Part shown: positions 22,539 through 50,495 of the stretch, piece by piece
How the letters are laid out: the number at the start of each line of letters is the position of its first letter
Position numbering within the stretch: position 1 is the first letter of the stretch
NCBI RefSeq assembly: GCF_010091925.1
Contig: NZ_WVID01000009.1
Location: 186,001-250,000, forward strand
DNA length: 64,000 nt
Reading direction: 5' to 3'
From: Nostoc sp. B(2019)
GTDB lineage: Bacteria; Cyanobacteriota; Cyanobacteriia; Cyanobacteriales; Nostocaceae
Notes under the pieces: generated by a model
The model's database searches: none
Seen by the model: the letters and a program-made list of their open reading frames with translations, nothing else
What the model was told of the DNA's origin: nothing
Translations under genes and position numbers: made by a program

Positions 22539-24611
22539 TTACTCTGTATCTTGAGTAAATGGTTTTAAGCGGGCTGTAACTCTTAATTTACTGAGCCTTT
22601 GCACTAGGTACAAAGCTTGTTGTTTATATAGTGCTATTGATAGCTGTCCAGGCAAATTATTCATCAACTTTCTAGCTGTACTGATGTTACATCCTGAAAT
22701 TATACTTATTTCATTTGCACCGTCAAAAATAGCATCTTGAGCTAAAGCTTTCTCGACCTGTACTTGCCAAGTTCGAGGAAACATTTCGCCTCGCTCAATC
22801 CGCTGGAGACTATTACTATTAGCTAAAACAATCAGGCGATCGCCAACAGCAAGTCGTATATTATTAGTAGGCATTAACTTAACAGGCGATCGCTTAAATT
22901 TTTGGTATAAAATCGGCACAACACCATAACCATAAGCGACTTCAGCTAAAAGTAATTCATTCAGTGTATCTCCAGCTTCAACCATGTACTCCACTACCAA
23001 AATAGTCTGAGTATCGAAGTGAAAGACGCTGAGAATATTTTCCCCAAAAGCAGCAGCAGCAAAGACTTCTGCTGAAATAGCAGAGGTGCAAAGAACTTGA
23101 GCATAGGGAAATAATCGTGCTACGCTATCACTAAAATATCGGTCATAAGTACGAATAACCACATGAGTAGTAGGACTATGAGCATGAGCCATCAAAGCTA
23201 TTTCTAGATTCTCCATGTCATCGTCCGTAACTACAACAATACTTTTAGTATTGGCGAGATTTATCTTGTCTAAAGCATCAGAAATACTACCAATAATCAG
23301 CGGTATTTTATTGAGAAAATCTGCGTTCATTGCCGTACTACTAATACCTACCAAAGGTTGCTTGAGTTCTTGTAACAAAGCTGCGACTCGCTGACCAACT
23401 CGATTCAACCCAATAAGTACAACGTAGTTTTTTTGGGGCATAGATGGCTGGTAACTGTTGAAAAACTGGAATCTTGAACTTAACAGAGCATTCGTTAGTA
23501 ATGCATATAAAACCCCAACAAAGCCTATACCAATCACAGTTAATCCGAGGCTAAACAATCGTAACCACCCTGGCATATTTTCAGCTAGCTCTGGTGGTGT
23601 TTTAAAATTAACACCACTAAATAAATCACTATATCCTCCTAAAAGCAACATTGCAGTAGCATAAAATGCTTCTATTATGTTAGTTTCAGGATAATTTAAG
23701 CTATAAATAACTGTTCCAAAACACCAGAGAAAAAATACTGTAATGCCACAGATAATTGCCACTCGCAAACTCTGATAACGATCTGATGTTTGCCAGAAGT
23801 GCGCTATTTGCTGTTTGAAATTCTTCCATGCTCTGCCTAATACAATCTCTTGCCATAATTGCTGCAAATTGTATCTAGGCTGAGTAGTAAGTTGTTTAAT
23901 TGTAAGCTGCTCTGTAACTTCAATATATATAACAATATCCCCTGGATGTAATATGGCCTCTGGTTCCCACTGATGAAATTCTTTAGGCAAGCAAGATGGA
24001 TTGTTTGTATGATTTAGTACTCTACGACATAAAGTATTTAGTTCACATATATGCCATTTATTGCTCCATTGATCACTCGGTTTAATCTGATGCTTTACTA
24101 CCCGAAGTTGACGTCCTTCAAGTTGAAAACATCCGAGATTCTCATCTCCAAGAGCTGCAATAGCAAAGCCAGCAGCGGAAATTTGATTTGGCTCAAAGGC
24201 AATAAAATTGCCAAGATTTTGACTTAAAAGTTCATTGAGATTTTGTTTATCAGAACGTACAACAAGGCGAACTTGGGGATTTAAAAGCCGTGCTGCAAAG
24301 GCAGCTTCTATATTCACCCGTTCATTGCCAGTGACTAAAAGTATAGTTCGGCACTTACAAATGTTGGCTTGTTCTAAAATACTGGTTTGACGGCAATCAC
24401 CGATTAGCAACTGTTCCAATAAATTTAATAAATTCGGTACTTGCCAGTTTTTGGGTTCTTCTTGATCAATAGCATTGACAACAGCACCATATTCTTTCAA
24501 GATGGCAACACAATGCTGACCCAAACTTCCTAGCCCACAAACTAAAAACTGATCTAGTTTTGTCTGAGAATCTTTAACAGGCTGGTAATTACTTTCTGAT
24601 GATGGCAGCAT
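22539..24611 (-). CDS. Two-RCK, 2-TM channel-like protein with altered filter (1)
   Basis: 690 residues. Order: N-terminal Rossmann RCK_N/TrkA-N domain (FLVCGLGSLGQHCVAIL, residues 23-39, then IDQEEP), a linker with TrkA-C-like region, two membrane helices around residues 285-305 and 355-380 with a pore loop between, then a second RCK_N (YVVLIGLNRVGQRVAALL) and a C-terminal TrkA-C-like region. In the pore loop, where K+ channels have TVGYGD, this protein has LLLGGYSDL. NAD or nucleotide binding is likely; conduction selectivity cannot be told. A paralogue lies at 28560. Confidence 0.85.
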   Translation of the reverse strand: MLPSSESNYQPVKDSQTKLDQFLVCGLGSLGQHCVAILKEYGAVVNAIDQEEPKNWQVPNLLNLLEQLLIGDCRQTSILEQANICKCRTILLVTGNERVNIEAAFAARLLNPQVRLVVRSDKQNLNELLSQNLGNFIAFEPNQISAAGFAIAALGDENLGCFQLEGRQLRVVKHQIKPSDQWSNKWHICELNTLCRRVLNHTNNPSCLPKEFHQWEPEAILHPGDIVIYIEVTEQLTIKQLTTQPRYNLQQLWQEIVLGRAWKNFKQQIAHFWQTSDRYQSLRVAIICGITVFFLWCFGTVIYSLNYPETNIIEAFYATAMLLLGGYSDLFSGVNFKTPPELAENMPGWLRLFSLGLTVIGIGFVGVLYALLTNALLSSRFQFFNSYQPSMPQKNYVVLIGLNRVGQRVAALLQELKQPLVGISSTAMNADFLNKIPLIIGSISDALDKINLANTKSIVVVTDDDMENLEIALMAHAHSPTTHVVIRTYDRYFSDSVARLFPYAQVLCTSAISAEVFAAAAFGENILSVFHFDTQTILVVEYMVEAGDTLNELLLAEVAYGYGVVPILYQKFKRSPVKLMPTNNIRLAVGDRLIVLANSNSLQRIERGEMFPRTWQVQVEKALAQDAIFDGANEISIISGCNISTARKLMNNLPGQLSIALYKQQALYLVQRLSKLRVTARLKPFTQDTE

Positions 24612-24761
24612 ATAATTAATACCGCCAATGGTATATATTATTTACCTAATATTATTTATATCGTACATTTTGATAGGCTTTTTACTGAATTCAACCGCCA
24701 ATACCAGAAATATCGATCAACAGCAAAAATGGTATTGTTGAGTTAATTAAAGACGATTAAT
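24612..24761. other. AT-rich upstream region of the riboswitch
   Basis: Divergent promoter region between the channel-like gene and the riboswitch. AT-rich; no other feature is supported. Confidence 0.4.
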
Positions 24762-24826
24762 GGCGATGGAGCTCGCCAAAACCGCCATTCCAGTCTAATT
24801 TGGAAGGCTGATGGCTCCTACTTTCC
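24762..24826 (+). promoter_or_regulatory. Fluoride riboswitch (crcB motif)
   Basis: All conserved parts of the aptamer are present in order: P1 hairpin GGCGA-tggagc-TCGCC, the AAAACCGCC linker, a long P3 stem (GCC-a-TTCCA ... TGGAA-GGC), then TGATGGCTCCTACT. The P1 loop GGAGC can pair with GCTCC at 24814-24818, the diagnostic pseudoknot; in known examples these bases differ but still pair. Downstream, ACAGCGGGAG (24833-24842) can pair with CTCCCCTGT (24872-24880) as a possible expression platform. It should turn on the antiporter gene in fluoride. Confidence 0.9.
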
Positions 24827-24922
24827 TGGCTTACAGCGGGAGGGTAGGGCTTGGCTAAAAGCATCACCTGACTCCCCTGTAGAAAGTATCTGTCTACAAA
24901 TTGCACTTCAAGGAGTTATGGG

Positions 24923-26557
24923 ATGTTAGCCAGTGTGTTGTGGATTTTGATGATGGGCTTTTTTGTGGGTCAACTTGCTCGTCGTTTGGGTTCTCCGCCT
25001 TTAATTGGCATGATTTTAGTCGGGATTATTCTTGGCCCCCAAGTGCGTAATGTCATTAGTCAGGATGTGCTAGGTGCTGCTGATGAGTTAAGAACTTTGG
25101 CGGTGATGATTATCTTGATGAAAGCTGGACTAGGGCTAGATCGAGAAAAGCTAGCTCAACAAGGAACTGTGGCGCTGCGCTTGGGATTTTTGCCGGCGAC
25201 AACAGAAGCGATCGCAATTGCGATCGCTTCTATGGTAATTTTTCGGTTAAACTTTCCCACTGGATTGCTCTTAGGCTGTGTGATTGGCGCTGAATCTCCC
25301 GCTGTAATCGTCCCTGGAATGCTCAGACTTAAAAGTTTAGGCTGGGGTGTCACAAAAGGCATTCCCGATGCAATTTTAACTGGGAGTGCCTTATCTGATG
25401 TATTGCTATTGCTAGTCTTCAGCCTCTTACTGAGTTTCTTGGGTGATGGAGGTGTTGAGCAGATTTCTCTACCTGGGGGATTTACTTTAACTGCTCTACA
25501 ATTACTTCCGTTGCAAATTATTATGCAAATCTTTTTGGGAGTTTTGTTTGGCTATTTAGCAGCCCGTTTGCTAGTTTTGCTATTAACAAAACAAAATTGG
25601 ACACAGAACGCAGTTCAAGATACAGTGATTGCCGCAGGTTTGGCCTTGTTGCTAGTAATTGTTGCTCATGCTGTACCTTACTTTTCTGGTTATTTAGCAG
25701 CAATGGCTATGGGGTTTTTCTTAATTGAATTAGATGCTCCTTTAGCTCGAAGATTGCGTGTTGGATTTGACAGCTTATGGATAGTAGCTGAGATTTTTTT
25801 ATTTGTCTTATTAGGGGCAACTATTCAACTGCAAGTATTGGAGAAAATTCTGTTACCTGGCATTTTAATTCTGGCAATTGGTTTATTCATCGGTCGAATG
25901 CTGGGCTGGTATCTTTCGACTCTGGGTAGTAATTGGAATTGGCGTGAAAAACTGTTTTTGTTACCAGGAAACTCCGCTAAAGCCACAGTCCAAGCTGCCA
26001 TTGGTGCAATTCCCCTTTCCCAAGGCATTGTAGGAGGAGAGATAATTTTAGCGATCGCAGCTTTATCAATTGTAATCACTGCACCGTTGGGCGCTTGGGC
26101 AACGATGACTTTTGCTCCTAAATTGCTCACAAAAGGAGAAGTTGACCCCACCAAAGTCACGGTTGCTACTCGTACTTTGTTGCTAGCAGCAGTGGATACA
26201 TCTAGTTTAATAACCGAAGTTTTAACCAAAGTTGCAGATTTGGCACGACGTAGTAATGGTGAAGTGATTGTTTTGCATGTCATTAACACCTCAAACCAGC
26301 AAGCTGTAGAACAAATAAACGAACAAGCTCAACGGTTGCTGTCTGATATCAGATATGAGTTTCTGACTACGGCTGGCGCTGTTCCAGAAGAGATTATTCG
26401 CATCGCTCAGGAGCATCATGCCACTGCGATCGTTATGGGAAAACGGGGACATCAACCTTGGGAACAAGTACTGATTGGTTCAGTATCACAAGCAGTTTTA
26501 GAAGCCAGTCCAATACCTGTAATCTTGCTGGAAAACCGTGAACCTAAGTCAGTTTAA
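24923..26557 (+). CDS. Kef-type cation:proton antiporter with C-terminal universal-stress domain
   Basis: 544 residues. Residues 1-400 are a CPA-type antiporter with 12-13 helices (GQLARRLGSPPLIGMILVGI; KAGLGLDREKL; GAESPAVIVPGML; GSALSDVLLLLVF). Residues about 415-540 are a UspA-like domain with the ATP-type motif GKRGHQPWEQVLIGSVSQAV and a final SPIPVILLEN. It exchanges Na+, K+ or other ions for protons. The fluoride riboswitch upstream suggests it serves fluoride stress, since fluoride entry as HF acidifies the cytoplasm. The ATG follows AAGGAG. Confidence 0.9.
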   Translation: MLASVLWILMMGFFVGQLARRLGSPPLIGMILVGIILGPQVRNVISQDVLGAADELRTLAVMIILMKAGLGLDREKLAQQGTVALRLGFLPATTEAIAIAIASMVIFRLNFPTGLLLGCVIGAESPAVIVPGMLRLKSLGWGVTKGIPDAILTGSALSDVLLLLVFSLLLSFLGDGGVEQISLPGGFTLTALQLLPLQIIMQIFLGVLFGYLAARLLVLLLTKQNWTQNAVQDTVIAAGLALLLVIVAHAVPYFSGYLAAMAMGFFLIELDAPLARRLRVGFDSLWIVAEIFLFVLLGATIQLQVLEKILLPGILILAIGLFIGRMLGWYLSTLGSNWNWREKLFLLPGNSAKATVQAAIGAIPLSQGIVGGEIILAIAALSIVITAPLGAWATMTFAPKLLTKGEVDPTKVTVATRTLLLAAVDTSSLITEVLTKVADLARRSNGEVIVLHVINTSNQQAVEQINEQAQRLLSDIRYEFLTTAGAVPEEIIRIAQEHHATAIVMGKRGHQPWEQVLIGSVSQAVLEASPIPVILLENREPKSV

Positions 26558-28559: not shown

Positions 28560-30251
28560 TCAACTGATCATGACTTGCGATCGCTCGTCACGCCACAATT
28601 GATATAACCGATTTGCCGGCATAGTCATATATAAAATATCCCCAGCACTGAGGTTGGTTTCTAGTAAATCCCACCCGTGAAGGGTTTGGTAATTCGTTTC
28701 TAAGTACAAAGGAACAAAGTCAGCAGACATTGCTACATCTTTTACACGCTGACCATACAAGGGATGTAACGGTGTAATCACCGTAGCAAAAGCCACCCAA
28801 AGACTATCGGCTGTGATGCCATTACCAAGGATTTGTCCTCCAAGTGCCGCCGCCGCAAAAGCTGGAGCGGCTAGTTCAGCCGGACTCAGTACGGCCTCAA
28901 AATCAAATACTTGTTGTGCCATACCAGCAAAATCGGGATCAGCATAATGGACAATCACCGGAATGCTAGGTGTTAGTCCTTTGGCCTTGAGGGCAATCTC
29001 TAGATTAGTAGCATCATTGTTAGTAACGGCAAGCACTGCGGCGGCGGCGTCTACATTGCTAGCTTTGAGTGTTGCCCGAAAGCTAGCATCACCCTGAATT
29101 ACTGGAATACCCAGCCCCCGCGCAGTGTTGACATATTTGTTATTGGAGTCAGTTTCAATTACTACCACCTCATTGCCGCTAGCGTGGAGTTGCTGGACAA
29201 TTCTTAGACCGATGCCACTCAAGCCACAGACAATATAGTGATGTCGCTGGGGAATGCGAGCAGCATCCCAAAACTGCTTAAAGCGGCTTCCTAGGACAAA
29301 ATCGGTGAGCATTGCGTACCAAATACCAATTACCACTGCCCCAACTAGCATCATGACAACGGTAAATAATTTAATACTGTCGGGAGCTTTTTCTACAACT
29401 TTGTCATTACCACCTGCTCCCGTTATCATGCCTACAGAAAAATATAAAGCATCAACAACAGACAAACTCAGTTCAGCAGACATGTAGGTAAGTGTGGCAA
29501 CCATAATAACAGCGAGCAAAACAACAGCACCAACCACTACCGATCGCCCGTGTTGTTGAAACTGCCTAAAATTGCTCAGGACTTTCAGCAGTTTTCTAAT
29601 CATTGATCTGCGTTTGGAACGGACGTAAGGTTGAGTGCCAATGATTAAGCGATCGCCTACTTTGATTTCTTGTCCTGATAGCACCGCAGATACCAAATTC
29701 ATCTCACCTTCCACTGGTAAGTAATAAATTAGCATCCGCGATCGGTCTTCCCACAATTCACTTAATTTTCGACCCGTCCACGGATGGTTTTCGTGAATGT
29801 ACTCTTCTTGGATAGGCCAAGTCTGCTTAAATAACTTGATTTGTCCGATCGCTTGGTTTCCTAATGCTGCAAAAGTAAATACGGGTGCTGCCAAACCGAC
29901 AACACTCATACTCAAATGATCCGGTAAAGTATGATCTAGGCGCTCCCCTAAATTTGTATTGTAAAAGCGGTTGATAATCCGAATTTGGGGATTTAGAACC
30001 CGCGCCTGCATCATAATTGACAAATTTATAGCATCATCAGGCCCAGCGATCACTAAAGTCTGTGCCTGCTCAATTTCCGCTGCTTTCAGGGTAGCAGCTG
30101 CTTGTAATTCACCAACAATCACGTCTCCTGTGTCTTCGCCAAGAATGGGTTTGTGATGAACACCAACGACAAACGCTCCTTGCTGTCTCAGCAAACGAAA
30201 GATTTTATATCCAGTACGTCCTAAGCCACAAACAATAATTCGGGGTTTCAT
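28560..30251 (-). CDS. Two-RCK, 2-TM channel-like protein with altered filter (2)
   Basis: 563 residues, with the same plan as the protein at 22539: RCK_N (IIVCGLGRTGYKIFRLLR), TrkA-C-like linker, two helices (about 240-262 and 298-322) around a pore loop, a second RCK_N (YIVCGLSGIGLRIVQQL) and a C-terminal RCK part. Where K+ channels have TVGYGD it has MITGAGGND. The intact GxGxxG motifs predict nucleotide binding. It may gate a non-K+ ion pathway or be a non-conducting regulator. Confidence 0.85.
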   Translation of the reverse strand: MKPRIIVCGLGRTGYKIFRLLRQQGAFVVGVHHKPILGEDTGDVIVGELQAAATLKAAEIEQAQTLVIAGPDDAINLSIMMQARVLNPQIRIINRFYNTNLGERLDHTLPDHLSMSVVGLAAPVFTFAALGNQAIGQIKLFKQTWPIQEEYIHENHPWTGRKLSELWEDRSRMLIYYLPVEGEMNLVSAVLSGQEIKVGDRLIIGTQPYVRSKRRSMIRKLLKVLSNFRQFQQHGRSVVVGAVVLLAVIMVATLTYMSAELSLSVVDALYFSVGMITGAGGNDKVVEKAPDSIKLFTVVMMLVGAVVIGIWYAMLTDFVLGSRFKQFWDAARIPQRHHYIVCGLSGIGLRIVQQLHASGNEVVVIETDSNNKYVNTARGLGIPVIQGDASFRATLKASNVDAAAAVLAVTNNDATNLEIALKAKGLTPSIPVIVHYADPDFAGMAQQVFDFEAVLSPAELAAPAFAAAALGGQILGNGITADSLWVAFATVITPLHPLYGQRVKDVAMSADFVPLYLETNYQTLHGWDLLETNLSAGDILYMTMPANRLYQLWRDERSQVMIS

Positions 30252-48770: not shown

Positions 48771-50495
48771 TTAAAACAAGAAGTAGCGCTGGGTCATAGG
48801 TAAATTAGAAGCAGGTTCGCAAGTTAACAATTCCCCATCGGCTCTGACTTCGTAGGTTTCGGGATTAACTTCAATGTGTGGTGTAGCATCGTTGTGTTTC
48901 AAATCCTGCTTCCTGATATTACGGGTGTTAGAAACAGCTGCGGTTCGAGTGGTTAAGCCTAGTTGTTCAGGTATATTTCTATTCAAAGCTTCTTGAGAAA
49001 TGAAGGTAATTGAGGTAGCGCCAATGGCTCCGCCAAAAGCGCCAAACATTGGACGCATATAAACGGGTTCGGGGGTGGGAATACTGGCATTAGGGTCGCC
49101 CATTTGTGCCCAAACAATCATTCCTCCTTTAATGACAAGCTCTGGTTTTACGCCAAAAAAGGCAGGTTTCCATAAACACAAATCAGCTAATTTACCTTCT
49201 TCAATAGAACCGACGTAATCAGCAATTCCATGAGCGATCGCAGGATTAATCGTGTATTTTGCAATATAGCGCTTAGCCCTAAAGTTATCATTGTTTGGGG
49301 AACTTTTCTCAGGAGATAACGGCCCTCTCTGGACTTTCATCTTATGAGCAGTTTGCCAAGTTCGCAGAATGACTTCCCCGACTCTGCCCATTGCTTGGGA
49401 ATCGGAAGCCATAATGCTAATGACGCCCAAATCATGCAAAATATCCTCAGCTGCGATCGTTTGTGGGCGAATTCTAGAATCGGCAAATTTGACATCTTCC
49501 TCAATGTTCGGATCAAGGTGATGGCACACCATCAACATATCCTTGTGTTCAGCTAAGGTATTGATGGTGTAAGGACGAGTGGGATTTGTCGAAGCGGGTA
49601 AAACATAATCATATTGGCAAACTTTTAAAATATCAGGCGCATGTCCACCACCTGCACCCTCGGTGTGGAAAGTGTGAATCACACGTTCTTCAAAAGCTGC
49701 AATTGTCTTTTCCACAAATCCTGCTTCGTTGAGGGTGTCAGTGTGAATGGCGACTTGTACATCATATTCATCAGCAACACTAAGACAAGTACGAATGGCC
49801 TCTGGCGTAGTTCCCCAGTCTTCATGCAGCTTTAAACCGATGACTCCAGCCGCAACTTGTTGGATTAAGCCATCACGTACACTGGTATTACCTTTACCCA
49901 AGAAACCGATGTTTACAGGAAAAGCATCAGCCGCTTGTAACATCAGGTGAATGTGCCAAGGGCCAGGGGTGCAAGTGGTGGCGGTAGTACCAGCCGCCGG
50001 GCCTGTACCACCGCCAATCATGGTTGTAGTTCCAGAGGCGATCGCGGTTTCGATTTGTTGGGGACAAATAAAGTGAATGTGGCTGTCAATGGCTCCCGCT
50101 GTAACAATTCTGCCTTCTCCGGCTATAACTTCTGTACCTGGCCCAATGATAATATCGATATTATCTTGAATATTGGGATTGCCTGCTTTCCCAATTTTGA
50201 AAATTTTCCCGCCTTTAATGCCGATGTCGGCTTTAACGATGCCCCACCAGTCGAGAATCAAGGCGTTGGTAATTACCGTATCTACAGCGTTATTTTTATC
50301 GTCACCATTAATGATGGGAGATTGTCCCATACCATCTCGGATCACCTTACCGCCGCCGAATTTTACTTCTTCGCCGTAGGTGGTGTAGTCTCTTTCAACT
50401 TCGATAAATAATTCTGTATCAGCAAGGCGGACGCGATCGCCAACAGTCGGGCCGAACATTGCCGCATAGTCTTGTCGTTTGATCCGATAGCTCAT
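48771..50495 (-). CDS. ureC: Urease alpha subunit
   Basis: 574 residues, full length. It hydrolyses urea to ammonia and carbamate. The nickel ligands and catalytic residues are visible: HIHFI, the carbamylated Lys in [31 protein letters not shown] and the mobile-flap region MVCHHLDPN; the Asp ligand is in [10 protein letters not shown]. The N-terminus [20 protein letters not shown] is standard. No ureA or ureB lies upstream within the window. Confidence 0.97.

Follow-up and report, generated by a model that had tools for sequence, protein, structure and literature searches.

A fluoride riboswitch before an NHA-like antiporter in a Nostoc genome without CrcB or CLC-F: a candidate translational switch

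An exporter, either CrcB/Fluc or CLC-F, is regarded as necessary for fluoride resistance. According to a 2024 review (PMC11139923), Na+/H+ antiporters rank next after these exporters in frequency among riboswitch-linked classes, and pH homeostasis is given as the explanation. An earlier sequence-only reading of this DNA had also named such antiporters among the known targets. Riboswitch control of Na+/H+ antiporters is already published, and the riboswitch-antiporter pair that we describe here is of that published kind. The antiporters of Baker 2012, to the extent that PMC11139923 reports them, likewise follow a riboswitch and may partly include the present family; compared with that account, the protein described here is NHA-like and stand-alone, carries a universal-stress domain, and takes turns with CrcB among the genomes of its family. 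The possible role of the antiporter as a stand-in for an exporter appears to be new, and its alternation with CrcB is an addition to the sequence-only reading.

The window is the whole 64,000-nucleotide stretch of Nostoc sp. B(2019) DNA that was analysed, throughout by computation. Its features at this locus are as follows.

22539 to 24611, minus strand: divergent neighbour of 690 aa, two TrkA-N domains, channel-like (Pfam)
24753 to 24827, plus strand: fluoride riboswitch aptamer (RF01734; cmscan, single genome copy)
24768 to 24772, plus strand: pseudoknot 5' strand, GGAGC (pairs with 24814 to 24818; compensatory variants in relatives)
24814 to 24818, plus strand: pseudoknot 3' strand, GCUCC (DNA GCTCC), also part of the competing antistem
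24813 to 24851, plus strand: antistem, a competing hairpin, 24813 to 24815 and 24817 to 24828 with 24837 to 24851 (MFE fold)
24833 to 24880, plus strand: proposed ON-state helix, 24833 to 24842 (ACAGCGGGAG) with 24872 to 24880 (CTCCCCTGT) (slid control)
24862 to 24925, plus strand: OFF-state hairpin, 24862 to 24865 and 24867 to 24875 with 24912 to 24918 and 24920 to 24925 (MFE fold)
24910 to 24915, plus strand: Shine-Dalgarno AAGGAG (from the sequence; 7 nt 5' of the ATG at 24923)
24923 to 26557, plus strand: NHA-like cation/proton antiporter (residues ~14 to 388) with universal-stress domain (421 to 535), 544 aa (Pfam)

The aptamer and the antiporter

A cmscan search of the whole window matched RF01734 (the crcB motif) at 24753 to 24827 on the plus strand with 52.3 bits (E = 1.3e-11), well above the gathering cut-off of 34 bits, and over model positions 1 to 64, which is the full length of the model; this was the single match across the 7.4-Mb genome. 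The sequence-only reading, which had called for this search, had placed a fluoride riboswitch with the conserved crcB blocks in the antiporter's leader, and both are there: the blocks and the pseudoknot are those of RF01734, and the aptamer itself is no different from that motif, the difference lying in a platform that looks translational, with a hairpin burying the Shine-Dalgarno sequence. The span it had given, 24762 to 24900, covers most of the expression platform; it omits the 5' end of the aptamer, which starts 9 bases earlier at 24753, and the last part of the platform, which reaches the start codon (position 24923). The GGAGC and GCTCC strands that it had matched do pair. All five pseudoknot pairs form in 44 of the 47 aptamers parsed phylum-wide, and double changes in these aptamers give GAAAC/GUUUC, GGAAC/GUUCC, GGAGU/ACUCC, and GAAGC/GCUUC in place of the GGAGC/GCUCC found here; the pseudoknot co-varies across relatives and is kept by compensatory change. 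Fluoride-Mg binding and gene control by the aptamer are predictions from its sequence.

The open reading frame at 24923 to 26557 is, as had been claimed, an antiporter fused to a universal-stress domain, with PF00999 on residues 14 to 388 (E = 7e-33; 114.4 bits against a cut-off of 26.2) and PF00582 on residues 421 to 535 (E = 7e-21). The label Kef-type did not survive. The antiporter shares the CPA2 superfamily and the NhaA fold with the KefB/KefC K+/H+ antiporters, but Pfam found PF00999 and PF00582 only and no TrkA-N (RCK) domain, the unwound helix reads A-E-S-P rather than the L-S-S-T of the Kef-like clade, and the ion-site pair is Ser-Asp; the missing domain and the different ion-site motif rule out a Kef-type identity. 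The closest solved sequence is that of NHA2 (SLC9B2), an Na+/H+ exchanger of animals (E = 1.7e-29), and the named close relatives of the antiporter come from Komarekiella, Roholtiella, and Nostoc. An AlphaFold model of medium confidence (mean pLDDT, 75; pTM, 0.63) matched MjNhaP1 (Z = 42.1; rmsd, 2.6 over 379 residues), bison NHA2 (Z = 36.1), and PaNhaP.

With NHA2 the protein shares the aligned Asp 159, the KATVQAAIG block, and E95. With its position counted by hand, E95 aligns with the TM3 glutamate (E214/E215) that is a mark of the NHA-like clade, and E95 is invariant in 30 relatives. In the CPA motif of the animal-NHA-like CPA2 clade, positions 6 and 7 are described as Asp and position 8 as Arg; here a Ser-Asp pair, S158-D159, replaces Asp-Asp and a lysine, K353, replaces the arginine, so we call the antiporter NHA-like and not a member of the clade. 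It also differs from NHA2 in its C-terminal universal-stress domain and in an extra glutamate, E124, in the unwound helix. Among 108 antiporter sequences, S158, K353, and E124 are invariant and D159 is kept in 106. Under the published CPA rules (PMC6181914), exchange is expected to be electroneutral when the residue at position 6 is not acidic, and exchange by this protein is probably of that type, one for one. The universal-stress domain retains a nearly invariant G-x2-G-x9-G-[ST] motif (G506-KR-G509-HQPWEQVLI-G519-S520) and may therefore bind nucleotide.

The sequence-only reading had reported no crcB gene nearby, and the absence goes further than that: CrcB (PF02537) is absent from the whole genome, and a CLC-F query gave no match in it. 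In these family searches for CrcB and CLC the control genomes gave matches as listed. The genome encodes two CLC proteins, with the chloride-type motifs GSGIP/GRQGP and GPGLS/GPEGP; the signatures of CLC-F are GNNLI/GMGLI, GREGT/V, and GEVTP (PMC11139923), and these motifs rule out either gene as a hidden CLC-F. The antiporter is unrelated to both exporter families. In relatives, members of these families are found at the same riboswitch loci, where CrcB alternates with the antiporter statistically and CLC-F shares its operon.

The 690-aa TrkA-N protein adjoins the riboswitch in several close relatives and is at most a candidate for a role in fluoride. A second channel-like protein with paired TrkA-N domains lies at 28560 to 30251 on the minus strand, so that the two flank the riboswitch gene, and a potassium link between these neighbours and the antiporter is possible. 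Elsewhere in the window, an Rfam match to 5_ureB_sRNA (104.5 bits; 50045 to 50339, plus strand) lies antisense within the urease alpha gene (48771 to 50495, minus strand); we do not count it as a sign of a small RNA here, since it most likely reflects conservation of urease coding sequence.

Antiporter and exporters across Nostocaceae

The family survey covered 109 genomes of the source's own family, Nostocaceae, with 50 antiporters counted intact, 59 CrcB, and 22 CLC-F. Ten genomes have both the antiporter and CrcB, 40 have the antiporter without CrcB, 49 have CrcB without the antiporter, and 10 lack the two (odds ratio, 0.05; P = 3.9e-11). This exclusion was also seen with one random genome per genus (median P = 5e-7; worst, 1.4e-4) and with CrcB shuffled within genera (P = 0.008); kinship is controlled at the genus level only, and shared descent can give rise to such a pattern. 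In the same 109 genomes the antiporter is independent of CLC-F (P = 0.81), and it is found together with CrcB or CLC-F in 20. Neither exporter was found in 34 of the family genomes, and 30 of these have the antiporter, 16 of the 30 with a riboswitch in the genome. Because the antiporter of related species tends to occur where CrcB is missing, these data suggest that it can stand in for CrcB.

The antiporter might instead be an accessory, pH-balancing gene, the true exporter being an unrecognised protein encoded elsewhere without a riboswitch. The review's ranking of Na+/H+ antiporters next after the exporters, its explanation of them by pH homeostasis, and its account of many exporters without riboswitches (PMC11139923) all agree with such a role, as do ten family riboswitch loci whose gene run includes a known exporter as well as an intact antiporter. 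A helper, however, should go with an exporter and a substitute should alternate with it, so the pH-homeostasis explanation does not predict that antiporter and CrcB avoid each other; the 30 antiporter-bearing genomes among the 34 without either exporter, and the negative CrcB and CLC-F searches of the Nostoc genome, also count against it. We regard an accessory role as unlikely, though deserving of serious weight.

The layout of the locus varies among relatives. A fluoride riboswitch is present in 50 of 386 genomes of the phylum, and the first gene after 52 family riboswitches is the antiporter, intact or broken, in 32 cases, CLC-F in 10, CrcB in 7, and none of these in 3. The riboswitch-antiporter layout also occurs among phylum relatives; elsewhere the antiporter is followed by CLC-F (G278, G306, G099, G129, and G068) or by CrcB (G177, G286, G340, and G024), or a broken antiporter is followed by CLC-F (G338, G336, and G203). 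In G167 and G125 the complete leader, Shine-Dalgarno hairpin included, is fused directly to CLC-F with an identical 96-nt spacing, and in G068, of the same genus, the antiporter lies between leader and CLC-F. G289 (locus L047) has a riboswitch and an antiporter with an in-frame deletion of about residues 118 to 374 that leaves the N-terminus and the universal-stress domain; searches of that genome found neither CrcB nor CLC-F. Three riboswitches above the cut-off (G404:C32:31082, G435:C185:30406, and G391:C88:110422) have no antiporter, CrcB, or CLC-F within 4 kb downstream. No riboswitch lies within 300 nt of 19 of the 51 family antiporter entries, some of which keep leader remnants, so the antiporter gene also serves without fluoride control. 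Loci L140, L142, and L145 keep the antiporter without an aptamer match, and pieces of their leaders resemble the Shine-Dalgarno hairpin or the antistem.

The replacement of the antiporter by CLC-F behind the same leader, together with its alternation with CrcB across genomes and the unusual E124 and Ser-Asp pair, invariant or nearly so, is also what one would expect if the antiporter itself exported fluoride and formed a third bacterial family of fluoride exporters. The protein retains the CPA cation site (Asp 159 and Lys 353), however, and the added acid of E124 should repel an anion. We know of no CPA protein that carries fluoride, which further disfavours such export, and we consider it quite improbable.

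The expression platform

The leader has an MFE fold of -72.7 kcal/mol (z = -4.45) with two hairpins 3' of the aptamer stems, and its description as an expression platform is new relative to the sequence-only reading. The upstream hairpin, the antistem, takes up the pseudoknot's 3' strand and is therefore incompatible with the bound aptamer; the pairs of its core (columns 10-40 and 13-37, for example) are formed in 29 of 29 leaders. The downstream hairpin sequesters the GGAG of the Shine-Dalgarno sequence plus the start codon. RNAalifold, applied as a single structure to all 29 leaders, recovered the antistem core alone, because the 3' half of the leader is unalignable across genera, and for the same reason the Shine-Dalgarno helix was tested on the 12 close leaders only. 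In these, four of its pairs are changed on both sides (8 cells), which 3 of 500 shuffles reached, and 86% of cells are paired, as against 36 to 45% when the helix is slid.

The proposed ON-state helix joins the 3' part of the antistem to the anti-Shine-Dalgarno strand and dominates the MFE fold in the relative G278; 87% of its cells are paired in the 12 leaders, as against 44 to 66% when slid, with weak covariation. Covariation of the antistem and of the ON-state helix showed no excess over shuffles, so that both are supported by conservation of pairing and by slid controls, and the order of switching is one that we infer.

The leader has the look of an ON switch that acts on translation. Intrinsic terminators are known from other fluoride riboswitches, a precedent for control by transcription termination here too; we found no terminator-like site in 24600 to 24960 and rejected a terminator on that account, and the last hairpin, which co-varies, covers the Shine-Dalgarno sequence and start codon, so termination seems very improbable. 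That the aptamer is degenerate or repurposed and has lost its response to fluoride, for which one could cite some relatives that lost the aptamer and kept the antiporter, is scarcely credible against a full-length match well above the cut-off, an intact pseudoknot, and close relatives with intact aptamers.

A proposed fluoride response

Our preferred reading, which we hold to be probable though well short of assured, is that a fluoride-induced translational ON switch controls the NHA-like antiporter as the cell's main riboswitch-controlled fluoride defence. When fluoride is scarce, the antistem (24813 to 24851) would capture the pseudoknot 3' strand of the aptamer, so that UGACUCC (24869 to 24875) could base-pair with the Shine-Dalgarno region, which would be the OFF state. 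Once fluoride-Mg is bound in vivo, the pseudoknot would keep its 3' strand, the 3' arm of the antistem would pair with CUCCCCUGU, and the ribosome site would open, which would be the ON state.

HF diffuses into the cell, and a more alkaline interior traps it as F-. The antiporter would swap H+ against Na+ or K+, probably in a one-for-one ratio, and such exchange would change cytoplasmic pH, the driver of HF uptake and F- trapping. Electroneutral exchange with H+ moving in and K+ or Na+ moving out would lower the F- trap; exchange in the opposite direction, with H+ moving out, would protect pH and raise trapped F-, and both directions are compatible with the sequence. The pH route is the most likely one for the antiporter, and a fluoride response through pH or ion exchange, as the sequence-only reading had proposed, is plausible, with precedent in the literature. 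Against our preferred reading we counted the 19 of 51 antiporter entries without a riboswitch within 300 nt, the 20 of 109 genomes that have an exporter as well, the independence from CLC-F, G289 with its internally deleted antiporter and no exporter found, the shared descent that could produce the exclusion, and the lack of excess covariation in the antistem and the ON-state helix.

More tentatively, it is possible, if not the likelier case, that across Nostocaceae a protein of antiporter fold is a stand-alone determinant of fluoride resistance that replaces CrcB/Fluc, through a lower pH gradient or through fluoride transport of its own. Both known exporters seem to be missing from a large group of cyanobacteria, and many members of that group instead place a proton antiporter under a fluoride switch. 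If the antiporter alone protects these cells, then either fluoride can be handled by control of pH or a further family of fluoride exporters exists.
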